A DNA stretch of 35,033 nucleotides from an uncultured Bacilli bacterium (lineage in GTDB: Bacteria > Bacillota_I > Bacilli_A > RF39 > UBA660), in assembly GCA_947624515.1 (NCBI GenBank), contig CANQKN010000006.1, positions 1-35,033 of the forward strand, in the 5' to 3' direction. Positions 32,910 through 35,033 of the stretch are shown here, one piece after another. Positions within the stretch are counted from its first letter, which is position 1; every line of letters starts with the position of its first letter. The notes under the pieces were generated by a model. It saw only the letters and a list, made by a program, of their open reading frames with translations, had not been told where the DNA came from and ran no database searches. The translations under genes and the position numbers were made by a program.

Positions 32910-34823
32910 ATGGCTAATGCAAAGAAAGAGGAAAATGTAGCAGAAAAAGCTAAAAAGTCTAATCATAAAACTTCTAATAGTAAAAAAGACTCTAGTAATC
33001 AAGTTAGCTCTTCTAAAAAAGTGGTAAAATCCTCAAAAACCAATACTTCTTCTAAGGATGCGACTACTTCCACAAGAAATAAAAATATACAGAGTTCAAA
33101 GCAAAATTCTGTTTCTAAAACTACTGGTAAAAAAGGATCAACCAATCAGAAAAAAACTGTTAAAAAAGTAGTAAATTCTAAAAAAACTAATGGTTCTTCT
33201 AAGAGTACAACTACTTCTACAAAAAATAAAAATATCCAAAGTTCAAAATCTTCTACTCCTAAATCTACTAGTAAAAAAGGTTCTAGTAAACAAGTTGATG
33301 TTTCTAAAAAGAAACTAGTAGAAGCTTCTAATCGTAATTTAAAATCAGATCTTGATTATAAAGATTCTAACAAAGATAAAAGTTCTCTAATTGATCAGCC
33401 AAGAAAAAATCTTAAATCTTATATTTCTCTTATCGGATCTAAAATCAATGCTTTTTTTACACATTTTGGTAAAAATCGTAATTTGAATAAGAAAACAAAA
33501 CATTCACAAAATAGTGAAAAAAAGGAACCTATTTTTACTAAAAAAACCAAAAAGATATTTCTTTTAGTATCTTTGATTTGTGGAATCATTATTCTATTAG
33601 AGGGGGTTATCTTCTTAATTTATTCTATTCAAAACGATCAAAAGAATGTTTATTATGATGTTTTAAATGCTATTGATTTAGATGGCCAGGAAATTGTTGC
33701 TGTAGGGAGTAGCGACTTTCGATATAGTAAATCTCAAAATTATACAAAGGGATATCGAAAAGGTAAACTTATTAAATATGATTCTGAAGGCAAAATTATA
33801 TTTGAAAAAATGTATGATAATGGCATAAATACTAACTTTAATTCTGTTATTTCTGTGAGTGATGGTTATGTAGTAGTTGGAAATGGTGTTTTTAGTGAAG
33901 AAGAACAGGAAAATGAAGCAAGTGAAGCCTTTATCATTAAATTTGATAAAGAAGGAAATATCATTTGGCAAAAATTTTATCAAGTTGTTACCTATACTAC
34001 TTTTAATAAGGTAATAGAAACCACTGACGGTTATGTGGCAATTGGACAAAGTATTTACGCTAATATGGAAATGGGTAATCATACTACTGGTGGAGGTATT
34101 ATTGTCAAATATGATTTTAATGGTAATGAGATTTGGCATAATAATCATGGTGGTATGAAATCAGGAAACTTTAATGATATTATTGAGGTGGATGGAAATT
34201 TCTATGTTGTAGGAAAAGATGCTACTGATAGTGCCAATCTTATTAAATATGATCAAAATGGCAACTATCAATGGCATAAGAATTATAGTTATACAGATGG
34301 AATTGGCTTTACAGGAATTACTTATTTAGATCATTCTTTATATGTAGTTGGTTCTAAAAAAGTATTACCAGAAGGAACTGGAGACGATGATGATCGTACT
34401 ACTACTAATACAGATGCTTTAATAATTAAATATGATTTAGATGGTAATATTCAATATGAAAAAACTTTCGGTGGTAGTAACTATGAGCGATATAATTCGA
34501 TTTTAACTTATAAGAATGAGTTATATGTTATAGGACATACTACTTCTAGTGATGCAGGTTTTAAAGTTGAAACAGACGGTAATCTTATGACAGGAATTTT
34601 GGTCCGCTATGATCAAAATGGAAATATTTTAAAGAAGCAAACTTTTGGTGGTAGTAATAATGATAATTTAACAGATATTGTTACTGATGGTGTTAGTATT
34701 TATATGTGTGGGTATAGTAATAGTAAGAATGGTAATATCACCACTTCTAAGAACAATGGTAAGGATTACTTTGGTAAAATAATAAAAGTTGACTTTAAAT
34801 TTAGAACTTTAATTGTTAAATAA
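32910..34823 (+). CDS. Membrane-anchored protein: Lys/Ser/Thr-rich repeat N-terminus, one TM, C-terminal beta-propeller-like repeats
   Basis: Low-complexity basic N-terminus, TM IFLLVSLICGIIILLEGVIFLIYS, recurring IIKFDKEGNIIWQK / LIKYDQNGNYQWHK / IIKYDLDGNIQYEKTFGGSNYE / LVRYDQNGNILKKQTFGGSN. Confidence 0.75.
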   Translation: MANAKKEENVAEKAKKSNHKTSNSKKDSSNQVSSSKKVVKSSKTNTSSKDATTSTRNKNIQSSKQNSVSKTTGKKGSTNQKKTVKKVVNSKKTNGSSKSTTTSTKNKNIQSSKSSTPKSTSKKGSSKQVDVSKKKLVEASNRNLKSDLDYKDSNKDKSSLIDQPRKNLKSYISLIGSKINAFFTHFGKNRNLNKKTKHSQNSEKKEPIFTKKTKKIFLLVSLICGIIILLEGVIFLIYSIQNDQKNVYYDVLNAIDLDGQEIVAVGSSDFRYSKSQNYTKGYRKGKLIKYDSEGKIIFEKMYDNGINTNFNSVISVSDGYVVVGNGVFSEEEQENEASEAFIIKFDKEGNIIWQKFYQVVTYTTFNKVIETTDGYVAIGQSIYANMEMGNHTTGGGIIVKYDFNGNEIWHNNHGGMKSGNFNDIIEVDGNFYVVGKDATDSANLIKYDQNGNYQWHKNYSYTDGIGFTGITYLDHSLYVVGSKKVLPEGTGDDDDRTTTNTDALIIKYDLDGNIQYEKTFGGSNYERYNSILTYKNELYVIGHTTSSDAGFKVETDGNLMTGILVRYDQNGNILKKQTFGGSNNDNLTDIVTDGVSIYMCGYSNSKNGNITTSKNNGKDYFGKIIKVDFKFRTLIVK

Positions 34824-34838: not shown

Positions 34839-34871
34839 AAAGGAATGTGTATTTTAACACTTTCCTTTTTT
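34839..34871 (+). terminator. Rho-independent terminator
   Basis: AAAGGAATGTGT-atttta-ACACTTTCCTTTTTT. Confidence 0.75.
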
Positions 34872-34872
34872 G

Positions 34873-34901
34873 TTGACAAAAGTGCCTGGGGGGGGTAGAA
34901 T
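34873..34901 (+). promoter_or_regulatory. Sigma-A-type promoter with G8 homopolymer in the spacer
   Basis: TTGACA (34873-34878), 17-nt spacer AAAGTGCCTGGGGGGGG, TAGAAT (34896-34901). Confidence 0.75.
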
Positions 34902-34933
34902 AAAGATAGAAAAATAGTAGTATGGAGGATACC

Positions 34934-35033
34934 ATGAAGAAGAAAGTGAAAAAAAGTAAAAAGAAGGAATTGATAATTACTATTATGGCTTTAATTAGTT
35001 TAGTAGTAATAACTGTAGGAATTAGTTATGCTT
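34934..35033 (+). CDS. Putative secreted/surface protein, N-terminal signal/TM only (truncated by window end)
   Basis: GGAGG ribosome-binding site then MKKKVKKSKKKELIITIMALISLVVITVGISYA..., similar in layout to the 5513 surface-protein N-terminus. Confidence 0.65.
   Translation, partial: MKKKVKKSKKKELIITIMALISLVVITVGISYA

Follow-up and report, generated by a model that had tools for sequence, protein, structure and literature searches.

A run of eight G residues lies between the -35 and -10 hexamers of a promoter that precedes a putative surface protein gene, and the question raised by this locus is whether the run acts as a switch for that gene. The window analyzed was an entire contig (C6) of 35,033 nucleotides from the 1.02-Mb draft genome G000, which comprises 72 contigs and in which sites were found by pattern search. 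The results make it very likely that the promoter is phase variable by slipped-strand mispairing. Replication slippage would add or remove Gs in the tract, the altered G number would shift the -35/-10 spacing onto or off an optimum of about 17 nt, and this spacing would set the transcription of the secreted or surface protein. The assembled G8 allele would provide the optimal spacing and is predicted to be ON. Slippage at this locus, the effect of spacing on transcription and the identity of the truncated gene are inferred. The strand and position specificity of the tracts, the length differences between paralogues and the mostly surface-type genes located downstream in relatives support the candidate switch that had been proposed from the window alone. 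The promoter is one of three of its kind in its own genome and part of a large class in the genus and family.

Promoter structure

The sequence-only reading had described TTGACA, a 17-nt spacer with G8, TAGAAT, GGAGG and a signal-peptide-like ORF, and both this anatomy and its interval proved exact (Table 1). With a score of 11/12, the G-tract promoter was the top promoter match within the last 1 kb. A homopolymer of at least eight residues was found inside the -35/-10 spacer of this good, vegetative-type promoter, where it fills the -10-proximal half. Transcription would start near position 34908, which would make the leader about 25 nt long and place the GGAGG motif within it.

Table 1. Features of the G-tract promoter locus at the end of the window
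Feature	Position	Strand	Basis or remark
Terminator-like hairpin followed by T-rich tail	34839-34868	+	RNA fold -11.4 kcal/mol, z -2.65
-35 hexamer TTGACA, 6/6	34873-34878	+	sequence
Spacer AAAGTGCCTGGGGGGGG, 17 nt	34879-34895	+	sequence
Part of spacer without G, AAAGTGCCT, 9 nt	34879-34887	+	recurs in G250 with G10
G8 tract, proposed slipping element, 3' end of spacer	34888-34895	+	sequence and behaviour of the class
-10 hexamer TAGAAT, 5/6	34896-34901	+	sequence
Ribosome-binding site GGAGG, 5 nt 5' of ATG	34924-34928	+	sequence
5' end of putative secreted/surface protein gene, MKKKVKKSKKKELIITIMALISLVVITVGISYA...	34934-35033	+	ATG at 34934; ORF cut by contig end

The hairpin ends the preceding gene (32910-34823) just 5' of the -35 hexamer. 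The G-tract promoter directly follows this terminator-like structure and is therefore probably required for expression of the downstream gene. A simple terminator scan did not call the hairpin. The preceding ORF encodes 637 residues with a lysine/serine-rich N-terminus, one membrane segment and GGSNND-type repeats, and no Pfam family was found above the cut-off for it.

Precedents and mismatch repair

In Neisseria meningitidis porA, a poly-G tract is located between -35 and -10 with an optimum of 17 nt, and in Treponema pallidum tp0126 a poly-G tract lies in the spacer and transcription is best at a total spacing of 17 nt (PMC7864442). The promoter in the window resembles porA in the G homopolymer within the spacer, the putative surface protein and the predicted 17-nt optimum. 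However, the bacterium and the protein are unrelated, and porA is one porin gene, whereas here a promoter class is repeated before several gene families. The tp0126 gene likewise has poly-G within the -35/-10 spacer but belongs to a different phylum and is a different gene. Of the two precedents named in the sequence-only reading, porA was apt and opc was not, because the poly-C tract of opc overlaps the -35 and is not in the spacer; tp0126 is the better second precedent (PMC7864442). The related tprE/G/J/L tracts of T. pallidum adjoin the start site, outside the spacer. For the sortase-dependent pili of Bifidobacterium breve, a G-tract switch operating by replication slippage was demonstrated (PMC9187656). 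This system is alike in its gut commensal host, its G tract and its surface pili, but the tract is intragenic and acts by frameshift, while that of the window is in the promoter; the coding-start tracts of genome G030 (see below) match it more closely.

The promoters of the multigene vlp surface lipoprotein family of Mycoplasma hyorhinis, a small-genome relative of Firmicutes, contain a homopolymeric A tract. They differ from the promoter studied here in having an A tract instead of a G tract and in serving lipoproteins. Mycoplasmas are not known to have mismatch repair, whereas MutS and MutL are present in the genome of the window. The mechanism is thus already known from promoters of the porA/tp0126 type, and what is new is the host lineage and the scale, an unusually large repertoire. 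A literature search of partial coverage found no report of G-tract promoters for this lineage.

MutS and MutL were both intact in the own genome. MutS exceeded the cut-off in 16 of the 17 congeneric genomes, the own genome included, and MutL also in 16/17. Loss of mismatch repair as a cause was ruled out by the presence of both proteins. Their presence should lower slippage rates, which counts against a switch; any slippage would have to take place in the presence of mismatch repair, as happens in other bacteria with phase variation.

Sister promoters and contig ends in the same genome

Runs of at least eight Gs were found at three sites in the own genome, and all of them belonged to one promoter type, TTGACAAAAGTG[C/A]CT-G(8-9). 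By chance, a genome of 1.02 Mb with this base composition should contain between 0.5 (independent bases) and 1.4 (first-order) such runs, so the count of three is only mildly unusual, but the shared promoter at all three sites is beyond chance. The earlier statement that a G8 run is very unlikely here did not hold for the genome-wide count; it is the position in a promoter spacer that chance does not explain. The proposed search for further G-tract promoters yielded the two additional sites, both with the same promoter. The three copies are G8 with a 17-nt spacer on C6, G9 with an 18-nt spacer on C53, and G8 at the contig edge on C49. At a fourth locus, on C29, the -35, -10, leader and gene start are all shared but the spacer (AAATAGTTAGGAAAAAGG) lacks the G run, which makes this locus a natural tract-free relative.

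The contig ends of C6 and C29 were identical over 77 nt, and the final 77 nt of C53 were found inside C6, which looks like an assembly with k = 77 breaking at a repeated gene start. These identical stretches lie 3' of the promoter, so that several loci have nearly the same 5' coding end, as would be expected if the locus varied by recombination between paralogues, with gene-body cassettes exchanged downstream of a common 5' end and the G run incidental. However, gene duplication also yields shared 5' ends, C29 has the shared coding stretch without a G tract, and across genera it is the tract that recurs and not the shared coding end. We regard this explanation as quite improbable on its own; recombination could act in addition to the tract.

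C49 ended exactly after its G8, and its 77-nt end shared at most 23 nt with C6, C29 and C53. A contig end exactly after G8 is expected where reads disagree on tract length, and the break in C49 could reflect mixed tract lengths, as it could a coverage gap. Among the 87 tracts of the genus described below, three ended a contig in this way: L212 (G013:C55), L167 (G010:C12) and L002 (G000:C49). G-tract loci break assemblies, and variable surface genes therefore tend to be truncated in drafts, that of C6 included.

G tracts in the genus

The strict promoter pattern was detected in 12 of the 17 congeneric species, while a reversed-pattern control gave 3 matches in total. Through identical promoter DNA, two of the congeners were recognized as Bacilli bacterium isolate ABMPRH_183_0 (G008) and uncultured Bacillales bacterium isolate MGG03199_1680015500 (G002). 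All tracts of at least eight Gs in the genus were listed, 87 distinct tracts were classified, and a tract was assigned to a promoter spacer when it lay between -35 and -10 with a spacer of 14-24 nt. This position was occupied by 59/87 tracts on the G strand and 0/87 on the C strand, compared with 5.6% of random 10-mers from the same loci. About one third of the tracts were outside recognisable promoters.

The strand bias bears on whether the G runs could have arisen artificially during sequencing or assembly, for instance as poly-G from two-colour chemistry. Homopolymer lengths in drafts are error-prone, and one obvious case was present: contig C23 of G008 has a G33 run at its end (L160), probably a poly-G sequencing artefact. 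An artefact would nevertheless have no reason to favour the sense strand and the promoter spacer (59 versus 0), and most runs had unique sequence on both sides and came from many independent genomes. The chance that the class arose in this manner is therefore very slight.

Tract length was the variable part of these promoters. Among the 41 genus sites with a tract directly adjoining the -10, 37 had a spacer of 8 or 9 nt once the Gs were left out, while the number of Gs varied. Near-identical tract pairs, which are paralogous loci and not alleles of one locus, differed in G number in 7/10 cases. With G8, the tract of the window is among the shorter ones of the class, a point against the switch. 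Tract-free TTGACA..TANAAT sites of the own genome (n = 41) had a spacer mode of 17 nt and reached 19 nt or more in 5 cases, whereas the spacers of tract promoters spread to 18-20 nt and were at least 19 nt in 25/56. These longer spacers would be expected if optimal and off-optimal alleles were mixed; alternatively, a slightly longer spacer could be preferred by G-rich DNA.

Genes behind the tracts

The contig stops 100 nt, or 33 codons, into the downstream ORF, and its product is consequently classed as a putative surface protein from the N-terminus and by comparison with relatives. The designation as a surface gene was in agreement with the signal-peptide-like N-terminus and with the surface proteins behind the promoters of relatives, but in the window it covers an ORF cut after 33 codons. 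Own contigs other than C6, C29, C53 and C49 gave no strong match to the C6 end, and the rest of the gene was not recovered. Of the 33 residues present, 25 could be compared with a paralogue on C22 and 15 of these were identical. A full-length own paralogue on C1 carries DUF285. A match to the camelysin-like family PF12389 was obtained only in the related genus of G097, behind a G tract, the C6 gene being truncated. The C6 product probably belongs to a paralogous family of TasA/camelysin-like proteins. The own genome had 13 matches to a TasA-like congeneric protein, and those whose upstream DNA was read had no G run upstream, so tract-controlled and tract-free TasA-like members seem to coexist in this genome.

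Behind the tracts of relatives, proteins with von Willebrand domains (PF13519), prepilin-type proteins (PF07963), the camelysin-like proteins of G097 and TasA-like N-termini with DUF285 (PF03382) were identified. In these relatives, the genes behind the promoters are mostly surface or pilin-like. Exceptions that are not obvious surface proteins included a sugar-nucleotidyltransferase-like ORF in G011, recognized by eye. G12-G13 promoters (TTGACAAGGT..G12/13..TATAAT) in G007 (L068) and G014 (L081) precede a near-identical ORF of 390 residues with no evident signal peptide, so that a product of another name would come under the same kind of switch.

Distribution in the family and order

A G9 run was present in 65 of the 117 sampled species of the family. 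The promoter pattern was detected in 87 of the 241 sampled species of the order, all 87 belonging to the same family, with up to 51 matches in one genome (overlapping matches counted) and the reversed pattern matching no genome more than 2 times. No match to the promoter was found in the viral contigs scanned. Genome G028, from a related genus, had eight near-identical promoters, TTGACAAATAT[GA]C-Gn-TAT[CT]CT, with n = 9, 9, 10, 11, 11, 13, 14 and 14. In G250, from another genus, the C6 spacer part AAAGTGCCT recurred with G10. In G030 (L009, L014, L019, L021 and L023), the tract was located in the first codons of signal-peptide ORFs, arranged as ATG..AAAAAGAGTCT-G9/10-TCAGAATTA, and would switch translationally, by frameshift. 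The flanks of these tracts resemble the promoter version.

The spacer sequence adjoining the tract is conserved among paralogues and, as AAAGTGCCT in G000 and G250 shows, even across genera. Together with the intact mismatch repair, this is what would be expected if the G run were a fixed promoter element, either a regulator-binding site or a spacer tuning promoter strength, that spread by descent and duplication without any switching. A binding site should keep its length, yet it is the number of Gs that varies. Moreover, the distance between tract and -35 differs in other genera, as do the flanks, and the tract of G030 is in a coding start, where only frameshifting makes sense. A fixed element is therefore unlikely, and slipped-strand phase variation is the reading we prefer.

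On the scale of the lineage, we consider it reasonably likely that a whole uncultured, small-genome Bacilli-type lineage runs its surface, comprising TasA-like proteins, von Willebrand-domain proteins and prepilins, via numerous G-tract promoters, up to dozens in a genome, each slipping independently of the others, with mismatch repair kept. If true, this would be a combinatorial switching repertoire comparable in scale to those of Neisseria or Campylobacter, although these organisms are not known to have one. The promoter class suggests that bacteria known chiefly from metagenome assemblies harbour a large set of contingency loci that has apparently not been described. Since G-tract lengths can be read from existing deep metagenomes, the switching state of the surface genes should be measurable without culture.

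Two further arrangements were observed. G060 (e.g., L117-L120) contained more than 30 G8-G9 tracts in a 1.3-Mb genome, located before secreted-protein genes with the conserved flanks ATGCAACT-G9-TGCAATACAAT. The nearest -35-like hexamer is farther away there, at about 24-25 nt, and the mode of action may differ. In CAOJDX01, labelled "uncultured Clostridia bacterium", the same promoter was found before TasA-like genes (L134 and L139) as TTGACAAAATGACCT-G9-TAGAAT and TTGACAAAATTACCT-G10-TAGAAT; either this genome is loosely labelled or the device extends beyond one class.
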